Shown one piece after another: positions 17,581 through 31,541 of a stretch of 47,973 nucleotides of DNA (its first letter is position 1; the number at the start of each line of letters is the position of its first letter). A program made the translations under genes and the position numbers. Where the stretch lies: contig CANQBP010000015.1 in the NCBI GenBank assembly GCA_947589415.1, positions 1-47,973 of the forward strand. Reading direction: 5' to 3'. The notes under the pieces were generated by a model. That model was not told the origin of the DNA. It saw only the letters and a program-made list of their open reading frames with translations, and ran no database searches. The stretch is from an uncultured Clostridia bacterium (GTDB lineage: Bacteria; Bacillota; Clostridia; Oscillospirales; Acutalibacteraceae).

Positions 17581-18411
17581 ATGTCTAAGCATATAAGAAA
17601 AATTATGGCATCGGTACTCTTCTGTTCTCTTATTATTGCGGGCGGCTGTTCAACACATAGTGCCGATACCGAAAATTCTGCGGAAAGCTCTTCGGGTCAA
17701 CAGCAAAGTGAATACAGCGAGCCTGATGTAAACAGCGAGATAAGCAATACAAGTGATATTGTTGACACGAGCAGTGATATAACCGATACCGAACCCTCCG
17801 ATGACAGTTCCGAAAGCGATGATGTCGAGTCGGAAATTTCTACCGAACAAAGCATTGAGGAGAGTACGGAAGACAGCAGCGATACGGAAGACGAGTCGTC
17901 ATACGTGAATACACCTGACGAATCATCTGCTGCGGAAATAAGCATTGACGGCTATCAGTTTGACGACGAACAAATTGTAAGCGATTATCATACTGCGACC
18001 GTATTTACTTCCAACGATGAATTTAATGAGATATTTTCTCAAAATGCCCTTGATACCCAATATAATACCGAACAGCAGCTTGCGGGAACGAGTAATGAAA
18101 TGAGGCAATTGACCCTATCGTATTCGGGAAAGTGGAAAGCCAAAGCAACCGAAATATTTACGGAACTCGACAATCTGCTTGCAGACAACCCTGAAGAACA
18201 TGATAAGCTCATACAATCGCAGGACGAATGGACAGCGGGACTCGGAGAAGCCGAAAGCAGCTTCTATTCCGAGGCAAGCGGTACAGGAACGGAGGGGCTT
18301 ATTGCAGCAGAGGCCGCAGTTATGAACTACTATAAGGGCAGAGCGGCAATACTGCTCGAACAGATATATGAGTTAAACGGGGAGATTGATCTCAGCCGAT
18401 ACGGTCTGTAA
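17581..18411 (+). CDS. secreted lipoprotein with Ser/Asp/Glu-rich linker
   Basis: 276 residues. A lipoprotein signal peptide ends in IAGGC (Cys23). A long acidic, serine-rich linker runs over residues 27-125. The C-terminal 140 residues form a helical domain (YNTEQQLAGTSNEMRQLTLSY, SQDEWTAGLGEAESSFY) whose pattern resembles DUF1311/LprI, though the cysteines usual there are absent. It is probably anchored on the outer face of the membrane. Function unknown. ATG with AAAGGAGG. The next gene, also a lipoprotein, begins 16 bases later, so the two form an operon. Confidence 0.78.
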   Translation: MSKHIRKIMASVLFCSLIIAGGCSTHSADTENSAESSSGQQQSEYSEPDVNSEISNTSDIVDTSSDITDTEPSDDSSESDDVESEISTEQSIEESTEDSSDTEDESSYVNTPDESSAAEISIDGYQFDDEQIVSDYHTATVFTSNDEFNEIFSQNALDTQYNTEQQLAGTSNEMRQLTLSYSGKWKAKATEIFTELDNLLADNPEEHDKLIQSQDEWTAGLGEAESSFYSEASGTGTEGLIAAEAAVMNYYKGRAAILLEQIYELNGEIDLSRYGL

Positions 18412-21273: not shown

Positions 21274-22599
21274 TCATTTGTTATTGAAAAGAGAAATTAT
21301 ATCCATATAGGAATCATCGGAATCACCGTTTGTTTCAGGCTTGGACTGTTGTGTGGTGCGTGGTGTCTGCTGTGACGATGTATTCGCATTAGGATATGAA
21401 GTATTTGCGTTAGGATATGTAACACCGGCAGACGGATATGTCTGGCTCGGCTGTGCTGTCGGCTGCGGAGCAAAGGGATTATAACTCGGCTGCGGCCTGG
21501 GCTGTTGGGTCGTTTTCTCCTGCGGTCTTGTTACTGCACCGAAACGTGACGGTTCTGTCCTTACAGCGGCAGGATTGCTGCCGTACTGGAATTGTGAAAC
21601 AGGCTTTTTATCGTCCTTTTTGCTTATCGGCGCATAACTGTCGGCAGTAGGGAAACCCGTTGCTATAACAATAACGCTGATTGCATCTTCCATTTCCTCA
21701 TCAAGAGCAGCACCCCAAATGATAATAGCATTCTCGTCTGCCTGTTCGGAAATCATGGTCGATGCTTCCTGTATCTCATCAAGTCCTATATCGGGTGATG
21801 CTTTAATATTAACGATAAGACCCTTTGCACCCTGTATAGATGTTCCCAAAAGCGGACTCGATATAGCATTTTGTGCTGCAATCTTAGCCTTATCCTTACC
21901 GGAGGCAACTCCCACACCCATAAGTGCATAGCCGGCATCTTTCATAACGGAAGTAACATCTGCAAAGTCAAGATTAACAAGACCGGGAATTACTATAAGG
22001 TCTGTTATACTCTGAACGCCCTGACGGAGTACATCGTCTGCTGCAAAAAAGGCATTTTGCAGTGTTATCTTTTCCTCACTTATATGTTTAAGTCTTTCAT
22101 TAGGAATAACAATAAGAGAGTCTACGTGCTGTTTCAGCTTAGATATACCTCCCTCAGCCTGTTCCATTCTGCGCTTGCCTTCAAACAGGAACGGTGTTGT
22201 GACTATTCCTACCGTGAGTATTCCCATTTCCTTTGCAACCTCAGCAACTACCGGAGCAGCTCCCGTTCCGGTACCGCCTCCCATGCCTGCTGTTATAAAC
22301 ACCATATCTGTACCCTTAAGAACTTCGGCGATCTGTTCCTTACTTTCTTCGGCAGCTTTTTCGCCAACCTCCGGCTTTGAACCTGCGCCCTTTCCGTGGG
22401 TAATCTTTTCGCCTATCTGCATTTTTTGTGTTGCTTTGGAACGATTAAGCGCCTGACGGTCTGTGTTTATGGAAATAAACTCAACTCCGGTAACATAATC
22501 CACCATTCGGTCGATAGCATTACCTCCGCCTCCGCCTACACCGACAACTTTTATGTTGACAATATTATCGATCTCATTATTTTCGAATTCGTAAGGCAT
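21274..22599 (-). CDS. ftsZ: cell division protein FtsZ
   Basis: Tubulin-like GTPase that forms the division ring. 441 residues. The GTP-binding signature GMGGGTGTG is at 105-113 and the T7 loop ([14 protein letters not shown]) is intact. A Pro/Gln/Thr-rich linker of about 100 residues follows the core; it contains a small internal repeat, YPNANTS written twice and a related TYPSAGV. The C-terminal peptide reads [14 protein letters not shown], the clostridial form of the FtsA/SepF/ZipA-binding tail. ATG with GAAGGGAG. It is the last gene of the dcw cluster; ftsA is not next to it. Confidence 0.98.
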
Positions 22600-22804: not shown

Positions 22805-24481
22805 TCAATAGTAACCGTCATCAGTATAACCGTCGTCTGTATAGCCGTCGTCGGTATAGCCGTCATCGGTGTAACCGTCATCGGTATAACCGTCATCGGT
22901 GTAACCGTCGTCGGTATAGCCGTCATCGGTATAGCCGTCATCGGTGTAACCGTCGTCTGTATAGCCGTCGTCGGTGTAACCGTCATCGGTGTAATCGTCG
23001 TCTGTATAGCCGTCGTCGGTATAACCATCGTCTGTATAGCCGTCGTCGGTGTAACCGTCGTCAGTATAGCCGTCATCGGTATAGCCGTCATCGGTATAAC
23101 CGTCGTCTGTATAGCCGTCATCGGTATAACCGTCGTCTGTATAGCCGTCGTCTGTATAGCCGTCGTCAGTGTAGCCGTCATCGGTATAGCTGTTATCCGA
23201 ATAACTGTCCTCCTCACTCGTCGAAGTTTCTTCCGCAACCGACTCTTCAGAACTCTCCTCCGGTTTATCGGATTTTTCCTTATCTTTACTTACCTCGGAA
23301 GTCTTACTGCTTTCTTGTAACGGACTTGAGGACGTTTTGCTGACATCTGCCGAGCCGATTTTGAGATACGATTTTCCGCTGTCGGACGAAGCAAGTGATA
23401 CGTCAAGCGTTCCCGTAACATTCTCCCTAACGTTGTCCGAAATAATACGTGCGGCTGTTTCGAGCTTATACTCAATATTCTCAAAATTTCCGATAATTAT
23501 TGTAAAACCGCTGTTTTTAATCAGTTTTACCGCATACATATCCGAAATATCTATCGTTTTAACCCCGGTTATCTTATACTTACCTATATTATCAACCAAC
23601 TTATCAAGATATTTGGGAAGATTTTTATCATTGTATTGTATTTTAGACGAGAGCTTAACATTTTTAAGTTTAGCCCCTAATATTTCGGGAATATCCTTGT
23701 AAGCGTTTTTGCTGTTGATTTCAATAATTTTACCGCTCTTGCCGAGAACAAGATACTTGCCATTATTCTCAACAACATATGTCGGCTTGGCTTCCGTTAC
23801 TTTTATATTGATTTTGTTGAACGGTTTCTTTTCAATATCCACCTCCTCAATGTACGAAAACTTTTTCTGTATTTTATCCTCTCCTAAAGAGGTATCGCAC
23901 ATAATAAGATTGTCACCCTTTTTTATCATAGAAGCGGCAATTATATCATCATTATTATATCTGGTCTTTCCTTCTACCGTTATTTCGTCAATTTTGAAAA
24001 AATATTTGAGCGACACACCTACACATATAACAATTAAAATTGCTATCGTTGCCGTTGCCAACAAAAATCTGCGAATTTTCTTTATGTACGGATTGACAGG
24101 CTCCTTTGGGGGAGTTACTATCCTTGGAGCAGGTACTTCATTTTTTTGGGGCGGCAAACCCTTTTTGGCAGCGGGCTTTTTATCGGCTGTCGGTCGTGCT
24201 TTTTTCGGCAGATCCGAAACCGCTTCCGACTTAGTCGGTCTATTGTTCGGGACACGCTTTTTTTGCTTACCACCCGTAACATTAACGCTGCCCTTCGGGA
24301 TATCCCTTGACCTTTTGTCCGTATCCGATTTTGAATTAACCTTTTTTTGTCCGTCACTTTTAGACGGAGTCGGTCTTTGTACCTGTTTGCCCTTTGATGC
24401 TGTTGTACGTTTTGTCGTATCGGGGGCACTCCTGCCCCCCGGCGGTCTTTTTCCGTTTCCGCCTTTTAAATTATCATTCAT
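22805..24481 (-). CDS. ftsQ: cell division protein FtsQ/DivIB with 25-copy C-terminal pentapeptide repeat
   Basis: 558 residues, roughly twice the usual DivIB length. Cytoplasmic N-terminus (1-138) is rich in Lys, Pro, Arg and Thr; one membrane helix at 139-160; a POTRA domain begins at FFKIDEITVEGKTRYNN and the FtsQ beta domain runs to about residue 365. Then comes an acidic Ser/Glu linker (EESSEESVAEETSTSEEDS). Residues 432-556 are 25 tandem copies of YTDDG, one of which is YTDDD, and the protein ends in YY. The tail lies outside the membrane and is extremely acidic. FtsQ bridges early and late division proteins with FtsL and FtsB/DivIC. ATG start; the gene order murG-ftsQ-ftsZ confirms identity. 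Confidence 0.92.
   Translation of the reverse strand: MNDNLKGGNGKRPPGGRSAPDTTKRTTASKGKQVQRPTPSKSDGQKKVNSKSDTDKRSRDIPKGSVNVTGGKQKKRVPNNRPTKSEAVSDLPKKARPTADKKPAAKKGLPPQKNEVPAPRIVTPPKEPVNPYIKKIRRFLLATATIAILIVICVGVSLKYFFKIDEITVEGKTRYNNDDIIAASMIKKGDNLIMCDTSLGEDKIQKKFSYIEEVDIEKKPFNKINIKVTEAKPTYVVENNGKYLVLGKSGKIIEINSKNAYKDIPEILGAKLKNVKLSSKIQYNDKNLPKYLDKLVDNIGKYKITGVKTIDISDMYAVKLIKNSGFTIIIGNFENIEYKLETAARIISDNVRENVTGTLDVSLASSDSGKSYLKIGSADVSKTSSSPLQESSKTSEVSKDKEKSDKPEESSEESVAEETSTSEEDSYSDNSYTDDGYTDDGYTDDGYTDDGYTDDGYTDDGYTDDGYTDDGYTDDGYTDDGYTDDGYTDDGYTDDDYTDDGYTDDGYTDDGYTDDGYTDDGYTDDGYTDDGYTDDGYTDDGYTDDGYTDDGYTDDGYY
22814..23188 (-). repeat. 15-bp coding minisatellite, 25 units, in ftsQ
   Basis: Exactly 375 bp made of 25 units of 15 bp with no indels. 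In the coding direction each unit is Tyr-Thr-Asp-Asp-Gly. All five codon positions vary in the third base between units; the only amino acid change is Gly to Asp in the middle (13th) unit. Units using ACA for Thr are always next to a unit using GGC for Gly, so some larger blocks were duplicated together. Confidence 0.95.
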
Positions 24482-24526: not shown

Positions 24527-25657
24527 CTACTTTCGGCTCTTTGATGCAATAACTTCAATTATTACCGAATAAATTCTTTTTACTGCATCACGAACCGCCA
24601 TTTTTGCGGCGTTTTCGGAATATTCTTTCAGCCGCTGCGGGTTAGAAGCAAGGCGGTCAATTTCTTCCGTAAGCCTTTCGGGTGTGAGATCCTTTTCCTC
24701 GATCATTACTGCCGCATTTTTCTCAACAAGTGCCATTGCATTATGGAACTGATGATTTTCGGCCACATTAGGTGAAGGTATCAATACCGACGGTTTTCCC
24801 TTAACCTGAATTTCGCTCAGCGTTATTGCCCCTGCTCTTGCAACGACAACATCGGCTGCCGCAAGACATACGGGCATATTATTTATATATTCCCTTATAT
24901 CAAGATTTTTCGCCTTTTCAAGATCAGCACCTTTTTCTCTTAACAGATCGGGAAACCATTTCCCGTATTGACCATATGCATGGATATGCTGATATCTTCC
25001 GTCATTTGCACTCCTTACAATTATATCCGCAAGAGATTCATTTACTATTCTTGCTCCAAGACTGCCGCCAAATGAAAGTATAACCGGTCTTTCATCAAGT
25101 CCGAGTTCTTTCCTGCTTGCTTCTTTGTCAGCAGTAAGTATTTCTCCCCTCACGGGATTTCCCGTTATAACAAATTGAGGTTTTCCCTTAAAATGTTTTT
25201 CTGCCGCGGGCATCGCAAGCATAACTCTGTCAGCGTGTTTGGAAAGCATTTTATTGGTAACGCCCGGAAAAGCATTTTGTTCGTGTATGACCGTAGGGAC
25301 ATCCAACTTAGCAGCAGCCCTCAAAACCGGACCGCTCACATATCCACCCGTACCGACACAAATATCAGGCTGAAATTCCTGTATTATTTTTTTTGCAGCC
25401 CTGCCTCCCGCAACAGCTTTTTTTACGGTAATAATATTATCCTTAATTCCCTTCGGCGTGAGCTTACGGCTGAAGCCCTGAACGGATATTCCCCTAAATT
25501 CAAACCCTGCTTGGGGCACGAGTCTTTCCTCCATTCCGCCTGTCTTTCCGACATACAGTATTTCAGCGTCCGGCTGCCGTTCTCTTACATAACCGGCTAT
25601 TGCAAGTGCGGGATTTATATGACCCGCTGTTCCGCCGCCCGCAAAAAGTATCCTCAT
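24527..25657 (-). CDS. murG: UDP-GlcNAc:undecaprenyl-PP-MurNAc-pentapeptide GlcNAc transferase MurG
   Basis: Converts lipid I to lipid II on the inner face of the membrane. 376 residues, normal length. The N-terminal GGGTAGHINPALAIA loop, the central TGNPVRGEI and FGGSLGARIVNESL, and the donor site VVARAGAITLSEI are intact. ATG start with AGGAGTGAG. It lies 13 bases downstream of the ftsW/spoVE stop, directly coupled in the dcw operon. Confidence 0.97.
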   Translation of the reverse strand: MRILFAGGGTAGHINPALAIAGYVRERQPDAEILYVGKTGGMEERLVPQAGFEFRGISVQGFSRKLTPKGIKDNIITVKKAVAGGRAAKKIIQEFQPDICVGTGGYVSGPVLRAAAKLDVPTVIHEQNAFPGVTNKMLSKHADRVMLAMPAAEKHFKGKPQFVITGNPVRGEILTADKEASRKELGLDERPVILSFGGSLGARIVNESLADIIVRSANDGRYQHIHAYGQYGKWFPDLLREKGADLEKAKNLDIREYINNMPVCLAAADVVVARAGAITLSEIQVKGKPSVLIPSPNVAENHQFHNAMALVEKNAAVMIEEKDLTPERLTEEIDRLASNPQRLKEYSENAAKMAVRDAVKRIYSVIIEVIASKSRK

Positions 25658-28594: not shown

Positions 28595-30856
28595 TTACTC
28601 AATACCGTTATCCTCATTGAACTCAACGGTTATAACCGTATAAGGTTCGACCTCTGTTCCGGGTTCTATGTCTTGAGATTTAGCATACGCCTGGCTGTTA
28701 TTTATTGCAGACCCCGACAGACATACGTTAAGATCGTTTGTTGCCGCAAGGTAGTTTACATCACTAAGACTGCAATTTCTGAAATCAGGCACTTTAACTT
28801 TTTTCTTTTGACTCTGTTCATCGGTATAAAGAACAACCGTACCTTCTTTCGGGATACTTGAATAAGCCGAAGGATTTTGTGCGATAACGGTATTTCCGTT
28901 TCCAACAACCTCTGCTCTCAAGCCATCATTTTCAACCTTATTTTTTGCCTCATCAAGACTCATATCGTCATATACCCCTACCGTTGTATCAAGCTGTTCA
29001 GCCTCTTCATCTGTATATACTCTTTCCACTCCGAGATACGGCAAAACTTCTCTCATAATATTTCTGAAACACGGGCCGGCTACGGCAGAACCGTAATAAT
29101 TTATTTCCGGATCCGGTGTATCAAAATAGCAAAGCAGCGCTATTTCGGGATCGTCACACGGTGCAATTCCGCAGAAGGAAGCTATATAATCATTTGTCGG
29201 ATTACCGTCCTCATCAACTATTTTTTGTGATGTACCTGTTTTTCCGCCTATGCGATAACCTGCAACATATCCGTTGGCAGCACCGCCTCCGGGCTTTGCA
29301 TTTCTTTCAAGCATCGAAACAACCTTATCCGCAACCTCTTCACTTATAGCTTGTCTTTTTACGGTAGGCTCGGCAGACCTGACAACATTTCCGTCGCTGT
29401 CAACGATTTGCGAAACAACATACGGCTGCATTAGCTTGCCTCCGTTAGCAATAGCAGAACAAGCCGTTATCATTTGAATAGGGGTGATCTTAAAGTTTTG
29501 ACCGAAAGACGATACCGCAAGATCCATAAGGCTCATTCCTGCCGGCTCGCCTTCCTTATTGTAAAATATGCTTTCGCTTTCTCCCGGAAGATCTATTCCG
29601 GTTCTCTCGGAAAATCCGAGAGCTACATAATACTCATAAAATTTTTCTCTTCCCAGCATAAAACCCATTTGCATAAATGCAGGGTTGCACGAATTACACA
29701 ATGCGTCCTCTATATGCTGTGTACCGTGACCGGAAGTTGTCCAACAGTCTATCGACTCCGCCCCCTCATACGGCACATACGAACCTGTACAGGTAAAAGT
29801 TGTATCCTCCTTTATAAGTCCTTCGGACAAAACAGCGGAAGCCGTAACCATTTTAAACACGGAACCGGGGACATAGGTATCGCTGACTCCCTTGTTTCTC
29901 CATTGAGCGTGCTGAGCCTTAGCTATTGCCGCGTCCTGCTCGGACTCCGGCAGCTTTTCGATTTCTTTTTGCTTATTTTTATCGGTAATTTCAAAAGGAT
30001 TATTCGGGTCAAACGATCCCTCACAAGCAAAACCGAGGATCGCACCTGTTTTCACATTCATCATAATGGCGCAGCCTCTGTTTGCGACATTATATTCCTT
30101 TATGGTCTGACGGACATATTTTTCCATTATACTTTGGATATTTTCATCGATCGTAAGAACAAGGTCATTTCCGTCCGAAGCCTCTACCTTTTGTTCATAC
30201 TGATACGGAAGCGGATTATTCTGCGCATCTTGTGCTATTACTATACGTCCGGAATTTCCGTTAAGCTCTTCGTCATATTCATATTCCAACCCCGACAGTC
30301 CCTGACTGTCACTTCCAACAAATCCGAGAATTGAACCTGCAAAGTTGTCATTCGTATAATATCTCTTATAATTTTCGATAAAGTTTATTACCCCGCTGAT
30401 TTCATGCTCTTCATACATTTTGTCGCAAAACTCAAGCACCTTATCCCTGAGTTCGGCATCTGCGCCGCGCTCCAGCATAACATAATAAGAATTTTCTTTT
30501 GTTTTCTTAATTATATCATCTTTATCAAGGTCAATTATTTTTGAAAGTCCCTGCGCAAACGATTCTCTTTTTTCATCGTCCCAGTTCTTAAAATTTGCGG
30601 GAGCTAAAACTATATCCCATACTGTTATGCTTTGTGCAAGTATATTCCCGTTGCTGTCGTATATACTTCCTCGTTTTCCCGAAACCGTCGTGTCATGGAG
30701 CTGCTGTTCAACGGCTCTTTTTTGCAGTTCCTCCGACTGATATACCTGAAGATAAAATAATCTTGCTATAATCGTTCCGAAACCGAGAAGGATTATTATC
30801 AGCATCGTTATGGTTGATCTGCGCCACAATGTAGCGGCAGCACCTTTTTTAGCCAT
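28595..30856 (-). CDS. SpoVD/PbpB-type class B penicillin-binding protein with PASTA domains
   Basis: Peptidoglycan transpeptidase, 753 residues. A membrane anchor lies at 16-37, followed by the PBP dimerisation domain (KRGSIYDSNGNILAQS). The transpeptidase motifs are S332-V-F-K335, S389-C-N391 and K539-T-G. Two PASTA domains follow at about 617-680 and 690-750. Domain order and position in the dcw cluster fit either the division PBP2 or sporulation SpoVD; this is the only class B PBP in the window. ATG with GGGGAGG. A hairpin region at 30891-30935 sits in its leader. Confidence 0.92.
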   Translation of the reverse strand: MAKKGAAATLWRRSTITMLIIILLGFGTIIARLFYLQVYQSEELQKRAVEQQLHDTTVSGKRGSIYDSNGNILAQSITVWDIVLAPANFKNWDDEKRESFAQGLSKIIDLDKDDIIKKTKENSYYVMLERGADAELRDKVLEFCDKMYEEHEISGVINFIENYKRYYTNDNFAGSILGFVGSDSQGLSGLEYEYDEELNGNSGRIVIAQDAQNNPLPYQYEQKVEASDGNDLVLTIDENIQSIMEKYVRQTIKEYNVANRGCAIMMNVKTGAILGFACEGSFDPNNPFEITDKNKQKEIEKLPESEQDAAIAKAQHAQWRNKGVSDTYVPGSVFKMVTASAVLSEGLIKEDTTFTCTGSYVPYEGAESIDCWTTSGHGTQHIEDALCNSCNPAFMQMGFMLGREKFYEYYVALGFSERTGIDLPGESESIFYNKEGEPAGMSLMDLAVSSFGQNFKITPIQMITACSAIANGGKLMQPYVVSQIVDSDGNVVRSAEPTVKRQAISEEVADKVVSMLERNAKPGGGAANGYVAGYRIGGKTGTSQKIVDEDGNPTNDYIASFCGIAPCDDPEIALLCYFDTPDPEINYYGSAVAGPCFRNIMREVLPYLGVERVYTDEEAEQLDTTVGVYDDMSLDEAKNKVENDGLRAEVVGNGNTVIAQNPSAYSSIPKEGTVVLYTDEQSQKKKVKVPDFRNCSLSDVNYLAATNDLNVCLSGSAINNSQAYAKSQDIEPGTEVEPYTVITVEFNEDNGIE

Positions 30857-31016: not shown

Positions 31017-31541
31017 CTACATAAACGCACTACTGAATGCGTCCAAAACAACGGTAAAAATATTTCCTGACGAATCTTCCTCAACAACCTCTCCCTTATC
31101 GCCGTTTGACAAAGAAAAGAATTTTTTCTGTACATTTTTCGCCGGTGTCATATTCAGTTTTGTTTCAGCATAGTTTCTCACATACGAATCCGTAAGTTTA
31201 CTGTCTATTTCCAACTGATACTTTGCCTGCAAATTCTGAAGTTCCGTCAGCTTTTTATTTTTTTCGACTATATCTTCATTGATTTCATTCAGCTCCGCAT
31301 TGAAATGTACAAACAGAATTGCAACCGAAGCAAGCACCACCGTAAGCAGGCTTACAAAAAATATAACAACCGGATTTCTCTTTCTTTTATGCGCCTTCGA
31401 GGAGGAACCTTGGCTTATACTTATAATCTTACCGCTTTTTTTCTTCTTTCTTAATTTTTTTTCTGCACTTGACATTTGCATATCGTTGTTTTCTTCAAAC
31501 AGCGAAAGATCGTATGCCTGATTTTGCTTTTTCTGATCCAT
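31017..31541 (-). CDS. FtsL-like septum formation protein
   Basis: 174 residues. The layout is that of FtsL: a basic cytoplasmic N-terminus (1-56), one membrane helix at 57-79, then a coiled coil with heptads at about 82-118 (NEINEDIVEKNKKLTELQNL). Sequence is poorly conserved in this family, so the call rests on topology and on its place between rsmH and the PBP gene. It would bridge FtsQ and the FtsW/PBP synthase. ATG with GGGAGGGAAAGG. Confidence 0.78.
   Translation of the reverse strand: MDQKKQNQAYDLSLFEENNDMQMSSAEKKLRKKKKSGKIISISQGSSSKAHKRKRNPVVIFFVSLLTVVLASVAILFVHFNAELNEINEDIVEKNKKLTELQNLQAKYQLEIDSKLTDSYVRNYAETKLNMTPAKNVQKKFFSLSNGDKGEVVEEDSSGNIFTVVLDAFSSAFM

Follow-up and report, generated by a model that had tools for sequence, protein, structure and literature searches.

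The FtsQ/DivIB protein encoded in the window, i.e., the whole stretch of 47,973 nucleotides of Clostridia DNA analysed here, ends in 25 tandem copies of the pentapeptide YTDDG. This repeat may be the form taken in one species by a long, disordered FtsQ arm that is acidic, usually also aromatic, and multivalent at the septum, a reading given a probability of roughly one half. Within the divisome FtsQ/DivIB acts as a hub, and the role of its disordered tail is known only in part. The genus offers a natural experiment in which the tail appears to be rebuilt from different repeats in each species with charge and composition held, and which lets one ask what property of the tail matters: length, charge, or aromatic stickers. 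The finding is more general than first noted, concerning a composition-conserved arm in one uncultured gut genus and a weaker form of it in relatives.

FtsQ/DivIB and its YTDDG array

The tail-bearing ORF (22805-24481, minus strand; 558 aa) is assigned to ftsQ/divIB by its POTRA_1 domain, its Foldseek fold match and its position between murG and ftsZ. The FtsQ-type POTRA domain was detected by Pfam (PF08478, 4.9e-12, 46.4 bits against a cut-off of 23), and the scan of the whole protein at E-values up to 0.1 returned POTRA_1, FtsQ_DivIB_C and KH_2 only. FtsQ_DivIB_C (PF03799) reached 18.3 bits, the cut-off being 21, and the NCBIfam FtsQ model NF004039 39.5 bits (3.5e-10), far under its cut-off of 353. 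In a Foldseek search of the PDB with the AF2 model, ranks 1-9 were FtsQ or FtsQ-containing complexes, including the FtsQ-FtsB complex 6h9o_C (8.6e-10), and rank 10 was the DivIB NMR domain 1yr1 (4.2e-4). The POTRA match, the AF2 model and the fold search confirm the view of the preliminary description that the protein is a true FtsQ/DivIB and that the tail comes after its ectodomain.

The AF2 model, based on a 69-row alignment, has a single N-terminal transmembrane helix and a large ectodomain (fold 162-376), with block pLDDT of 89-98 over residues 131-370 and of 38-63 over residues 1-120 and 381-558. The N-terminal region (residues 1-130; 24092-24481, minus strand, as are all parts of the gene) is basic, presumably cytoplasmic and mostly predicted to be disordered (block pLDDT 38-63 over residues 1-120 and 82 over residues 121-130); residues 1-133 carry a net charge of +22. 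It is followed by helix 131-161 (23999-24091), which holds the transmembrane segment in a hydrophobic stretch starting near residue 135, by the POTRA domain found by Pfam (residues 162-230; 23792-23998; AF2 block pLDDT 95-98), and by the beta domain of the AF2 model (residues 237-376; 23354-23773), whose last strand, residues 372-375, lies at 23357-23368. The tail begins right after this strand, and the residues beyond the beta domain are predicted to be disordered (block pLDDT 39-52 over residues 381-558). It consists of a Ser/Lys/Glu-rich linker (residues 377-431; 23189-23353; net charge -10), the YTDDG repeat (residues 432-556; 22814-23188) and a terminal Tyr-Tyr with the stop codon, read from the sequence (22805-22813). 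The net charge of the repeat, including the final YY, is -51.

The gene order murG-ftsQ-ftsZ is that of the dcw cluster. The gene directly upstream (24527-25657, minus strand) has the Pfam glycosyltransferase 28 domains and is named murG from its position and family, and ftsZ (21274-22599, minus strand; Pfam Tubulin/FtsZ_C) lies 205 bp downstream. A septal-type PBP with PASTA domains (28595-30856, minus strand; Pfam Transpeptidase, 3.5e-72; PASTA in two stretches, 2.8e-15) is a candidate functional partner. A bitopic protein encoded at 31017-31541 (minus strand) is probably FtsL/DivIC-like, judged by its size, topology and dcw position; its scores for PF04977 (21.1 bits) and PF04999 (15.6 bits) are both under the cut-off. 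A short tandem repeat was also seen in the C-terminal linker of FtsZ (21380-21419, minus strand).

The array is made of 25 units of 15 bp with no indel, at the C-terminal end of the ORF. Tandem Repeats Finder gave it a period of 15, 25.1 copies and a score of 465, the other five rows of the window scoring 50-66. There are 14 distinct unit sequences among the 25. Tyr is encoded by TAT in 18 units and TAC in seven, Thr by ACC in 15, ACA in seven and ACT in three, the first Asp by GAC in 14 and GAT in 11, the second Asp by GAC in 24 and GAT in one (unit 11), and Gly by GGC in 13 and GGT in 11, the remaining codon being GAT (Asp) in unit 13. The repeat thus comprises 51 D, 25 Y, 25 T, and 24 G. 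These counts agree with the preliminary description, which had reported the 25 indel-free units at 22814-23188, a single amino-acid change in 125 codons (Gly to Asp, unit 13), a tail with 51 Asp and 25 repeat Tyr, and third bases varying at all five codons; the last is true, but for the second Asp codon in one unit only.

All five third-position columns segregate, as against one of the ten first- and second-position columns (Fisher P = 0.002), each repeat column being entered once to limit the effect of variants spread by duplication; for the same reason the variant counts are not counts of independent mutations. A dN/dS-like comparison between units, proposed in the preliminary description, was made as an omega-like ratio (distinct variant codons divided by mutational opportunity, with transitions weighted four times), which is 0.061, silent changes dominating in the open ftsQ frame. 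In a six-frame control, only the ftsQ frame combined third-position variation with the absence of stops, and it gave two distinct peptide units. The other three stop-free frames gave 11-14 distinct peptide units, and the two frames with stops gave seven units with 14 stops and two units with 24 stops. Coding in another frame or strand across the array is ruled out by this control, and the variation fits protein-level selection in the ftsQ frame only.

The figure of 25 copies is provisional, because the window's genome is a draft assembly in 95 contigs and another of its arrays sits at contig ends. The same observation, together with apparent tail frameshifts in two relatives and a run of N in a third, could point to a repeat made or altered by draft assembly. 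Such an artefact is highly improbable given 14 distinct units within one open frame and tails of like kind in 59 of 61 species genomes.

Tails in the genus and beyond

The genus was searched in 64 genomes, one per species. An FtsQ match was found in 62 of them (none in G077 and G032) and 61 ftsQ genes were recovered, eight of which run off their contig; the 62nd match (G014) covers 24 residues at a contig start. In 59 of the 61 the tail is at least 50 aa long, and every one of these 59 tails has a net charge of -10 or lower. The two exceptions are L015, which has an apparent frameshift with the acidic tail going on in other frames, and L087, the tail of which is cut by a contig end. L066 has an apparent frameshift late in the tail, and L078 contains a run of N. 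Since the acidic reading continues in other frames, the shifts of L015 and L066 are likely to be errors of assembly or sequencing. Relatives that are tailless or frame-broken, named in the preliminary description as evidence that would count against it, are therefore rare in the genus: the tail is kept in 59 of 61 FtsQ proteins, and frame-broken tails exist, but are few (L015, L066).

The median tail of the genus is 132 aa long with 36% D/E and 4% K/R, and the N-terminal region is mostly basic, with a median net charge of +15. Eight proteins have Glu-rich tails and, as read from the first Met, a short or acidic N-terminus in place of the basic one (L026, L027, L029, L030, L033, L035, L081, L091). 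Repeat units differ among species and fall into Asp-rich, Glu-rich and Pro-Glu-rich types with periods of five to 20 codons; among the consensus units are GYTDD, NNWDDNTGD, YDDGTGGEET, TPDDN, EESSEDEEYSEDE and YTPDYDTGDDND. The Pro-Glu type is represented by L022, and some tails are Ser-Glu rich. YTDDG itself is present in 10 of 58 tails (the 61 minus L015, L077, and L087), the mean across 60 block shuffles being 0.7, and five of these ten tails (L006-L009, L063) form one clade in the FtsQ tree, which was midpoint-rooted for drawing only. The LPxTG sortase motif was found in none of the 58 tails. Selection on the exact YTDDG sequence is rejected, because the units differ across the genus. The claim of the preliminary description that selection keeps the YTDDG protein sequence therefore stands in part: silent changes do dominate, and in the ftsQ frame only, but what is kept among species is not this unit.

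Arrays with at least four ungapped copies were obtained from 32 of the 61 genus genes examined. Codon positions 1, 2, and 3 segregate in 54, 38, and 174 of 331 columns each, and third positions are the most variable in 32 of 32 arrays. Seven further arrays outside the genus agree on the third-position excess, at most six of them being independent (L154 is the same gene as L031, and the tails of L159 and L163 are near-identical). Within the genus arrays 165 silent and 103 replacement variants were counted, corresponding to an omega-like ratio of 0.22, i.e., a weaker constraint than in the window's array. Replacements to basic residues are two of 103 (expected 15%), to aliphatic 13 (expected 24%), to polar 45 (expected 39%), to acidic 28 (expected 13%) and to aromatic 15 (expected 4%), with no stops among the 103 (expected 4%). 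As read from these variants, purifying selection is shown to hold the tail acidic and nearly without basic residues, and the species-specific units are shown to look as repeated tandem duplication would make them. Since replacements avoid basic residues and third positions vary most, the genus seems to keep the charge and composition of the tail, not its sequence. Aromatic residues are wholly absent from four of 58 tails, and 14 of the 59 long tails hold fewer than five. Judging by the occurrence of aromatic-free, Pro-Glu or Ser-Glu tails, Tyr cannot be indispensable.

Outside the genus the tail was compared in three sets of loci, all non-random: the named set comprises the best matches of a profile scan of named genomes, the family set 20 loci near the top of the ranking and 20 chosen from lower positions, and the order set the best-scoring loci, some of them from the same family. 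A single FtsQ core query of the named genomes had given no match, whereas the profile scan gave matches. In these sets, acidic tails of at least 50 aa were found in 28 of 31 named, 15 of 40 family and eight of 29 order-search loci, as compared to 59 of 61 in the genus; those having in addition at least five aromatics number 24, eight, zero and, in the genus, 45. Tails shorter than 20 aa occur in one genus, three named, 14 family and seven order-search loci. A net-positive tail of at least 20 aa was found in none of the 61 genus, 31 named, 40 family and 29 order-search loci, these sets overlapping. The neighbouring branch of Pseudoruminococcus massiliensis (L153, L150, L155) has only 8-11 residues past the FtsQ core. 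Because this branch is without a tail, the tail is not needed for FtsQ function in general.

The tailless branch, the high variability of tails in the family and order, and the wide variation of unit, length and copy number between species would also suit a permissive, near-neutral tail, in which slippage makes repeats at the free C-terminus of FtsQ and selection only purges stops and those basic or sticky hydrophobic residues that harm secretion or solubility, with no positive function. This explanation is rather unlikely. Long acidic tails are found in nearly all genus members (59/61), the shortest of 49 complete genus tails (12 of the 61 being dropped) still has 54 aa, and the replacements do more than avoid basic and aliphatic residues, acidic and aromatic ones being over-represented among them.

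The DivIB gamma tail and a multivalent septal arm

DivIB is known to carry a disordered tail, termed gamma, at its C-terminus (PMC3152878, PMC10994846, PMC11988411). The preliminary description had stated that it knew of no such tail in characterised FtsQ/DivIB; as these reports describe it, the disordered gamma tail is a precedent, and the tail of the window is an extreme variant. In Gram-positive bacteria such as S. aureus, S. pneumoniae, and G. stearothermophilus the gamma tail is reported likewise to follow the beta domain, unstructured and extracytoplasmic. It is given there as 30-40 residues at the very C-terminus, with 35 in S. pneumoniae, and the truncation made in S. aureus takes away residues 373-439. 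In S. aureus it is credited with a part in localisation and in activation of the synthase. In contrast to these reported tails, the window tail has 182 residues after a complete beta domain, is tandemly repetitive, has a net charge of -61 and is rich in Tyr. Removal of residues 373-439 from S. aureus DivIB was reported to abolish directional movement and to mislocalise the protein (PMC10994846), and in the crystals of the E. coli and Yersinia proteins the gamma-tail residues are counted within the beta domain (PMC3152878). Among the open-access matches listed, an acidic or repeat tail on FtsQ/DivIB is named in no title or abstract start. The tail may be regarded as an enlarged, acidic-aromatic form of the known gamma tail.

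The disordered linker of FtsZ is likewise a segment of a division protein in which composition may outweigh sequence. It is cytoplasmic and lies between domains, whereas the FtsQ tail is extracytoplasmic and forms a free end. The acidic C-terminal domain of Hfq is similarly described as a disordered acidic extension of a folded protein (PMC5606850). Hfq, however, is an RNA chaperone, and no sign of Hfq-like autoregulation was seen in the FtsQ tail.

In E. coli the pairing partner of FtsB is the final beta-domain strand of FtsQ (PMC6134095), and the same type of pairing may take place at strand 372-375 here. At 0.36 nm per residue, the contour length of the 182-residue tail would be about 66 nm, reaching into the septal wall space. 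Because it is 182 residues long and leaves the protein next to the strand to which FtsB (DivIC) binds in the E. coli protein, it could act there as a polyanionic, Tyr-bearing, multivalent arm. Weak contacts might be made by acid clusters with Ca2+/Mg2+ or basic patches, and by Tyr with sugars or with other Tyr/Asp tails, e.g., those of the second genus-wide protein described below. Many such contacts together would keep the DivIB-DivIC-FtsL-PBP complex for longer at the growing septum. The function would then be set by length, charge and sticker density, so sequence could drift while composition does not. Of the functions considered, that of a multivalent septal arm is the best-supported guess. 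Speaking against it are the tailless branch, the tails poor in aromatics and, as set out below, the lack of covariation with the second protein in length, acid or aromatics within the genus.

A basic partner for the tail in the divisome was sought in net charges and found in none of FtsL (-5), DivIC (-3), the PBP ectodomain (-51), and the FtsQ core (+5). Electrostatic pairing of the tail with the FtsQ core was rejected, the charge of the tail showing no significant relation to that of the ectodomain (rho -0.23, P = 0.11; n = 49, with 12 of 61 dropped), and the charges of tail and N-terminus are not correlated either (rho 0.15, P = 0.35, n = 41). Binding to wall polymers, a role suggested in the preliminary description, is electrostatically unlikely for anionic polymers without bridging cations.

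Another role would be that of a divalent-cation sponge, in which Ca2+ or Mg2+ at the septum is taken up by Asp/Glu clusters and Tyr, so that the wall is buffered locally or the tail condenses with calcium. The net charge of -51 over the repeat agrees with it, and anionic wall polymers are likely in this genome, which has four PF04464 matches over the cut-off, one with internal stop codons. DxDGDG strings were seen in the FtsQ tails of L169 and L170, which are of the Ruminococcus type outside the genus, and the wider motif DxD[GNA]DG is found in these two and in one genus member, L023; the strings presumably resemble calcium-binding loops and are in favour of the sponge. Asp/Gly-rich extracellular repeats that bind calcium, which the FtsQ tail resembles in that respect, include thrombospondin type 3, RTX and dockerin. 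To our knowledge, however, the YTDDG unit does not have the calcium-loop spacing of these repeats; none of the three families had a profile match in the window FtsQ (Pfam, E up to 0.1), and no calcium-binding domain was named by Pfam in FtsQ of the window, L169, or L170. A cation sponge is accordingly an unlikely account of the tail.

A second acidic, Tyr-rich protein and other acidic segments

The window's genome encodes a second membrane protein with a tail of this kind, a candidate partner of the FtsQ tail. It has a signal peptide and YEDPGYEDPN repeats, and its gene is split at the repeat between contigs C14 and C31 (halves at L196:1-287 and L202:15812-16594, both on the minus strand; relatives L323-L352). 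The general layout is a signal peptide, species-specific acidic/Tyr repeats, an LTSxDWExL motif and a transmembrane helix, making it a single-pass protein. A search with the conserved part (LTSxDWExL and transmembrane helix) found it in 57 of 64 genus genomes, and most of the 30 genus loci read have an acidic-Tyr ectodomain with units differing per species. The protein of G064 is short, its FtsQ tail being without aromatics, and G014 and G075 show fragments only. Of 200 family genomes, 37 have weaker matches, two of these genomes belonging to the genus; matches in the family with E-values around 1e-4 are not certain to be true orthologues. Genomes of the Pseudoruminococcus type have a short second protein together with a short FtsQ tail. 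By eye, the genes on one flank of it look like transketolase halves and those on the other flank like ribosomal protein genes, not like division genes.

Across 19 family genomes the second protein and the FtsQ tail are correlated in aromatic counts (rho 0.76, P = 1.5e-4) and acid counts (rho 0.55, P = 0.016); these and the following correlations ignore or only partly handle shared descent. Leaving out G192 and G280 (parsed length 0) and G196 (match score about 0) gave rho 0.78 and 0.75, respectively (n = 16), and removing the Pseudoruminococcus type as well 0.73 and 0.73 (n = 14). When each genus was represented by a single genome, a partial control for descent, rho was 0.74 for aromatics (P = 0.010) and 0.64 for acid (P = 0.034; n = 11). 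Within the genus no covariation was found in length (rho 0.18), acid (0.24), or aromatics (0.00) among 25 loci, i.e., the 30 minus G000, G014, and G075 (off the list) and G006 and G071 (FtsQ tail unusable); D/(D+E) of the two proteins covaries weakly (rho 0.42, P = 0.038, n = 25). It is conceivable, if distinctly improbable, that FtsQ and the second single-pass protein carry matched acidic-Tyr disordered arms which co-assemble, by Tyr/Asp and cation-bridged contacts, into a condensate- or brush-like septal layer, with a composition set by the lineage and units renewed by tandem duplication, as an extracytoplasmic 'IDR dialect.'

Acidic linkers are also found in other signal- or membrane-bearing ORFs of the genome, and a relative (G020) has a VanY-family carboxypeptidase (L041, on contig C100; PF02557, 8.8e-35) that ends in YSDEGYSGE repeats and in this closely resembles the FtsQ tails. 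The FtsQ tail might then merely follow a habit of the lineage, in which many extracytoplasmic disordered segments are acidic for the sake of secretion or as wall spacers. This, too, is rather unlikely. In a 444.6 kb sample of the window's genome, which included contig C31 because it carried the second protein, 11 acidic disordered segments were found in membrane or secreted ORFs, and seven of these have less than 4% aromatics. At least 15% aromatics are present in only four of the 11: the FtsQ tail, the two halves of the second protein, and one stretch read by eye as MORN-like. The FtsQ tail is moreover the longest acidic segment in the 412 sampled ORFs, though the repeat of the second protein, cut by contig ends, may be longer. 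An acidic segment of the aromatic-poor kind is seen in the window itself, where a lipoprotein-like ORF (17581-18411, plus strand) has, after its signal, a Ser/Asp/Glu linker that is nearly free of aromatics.
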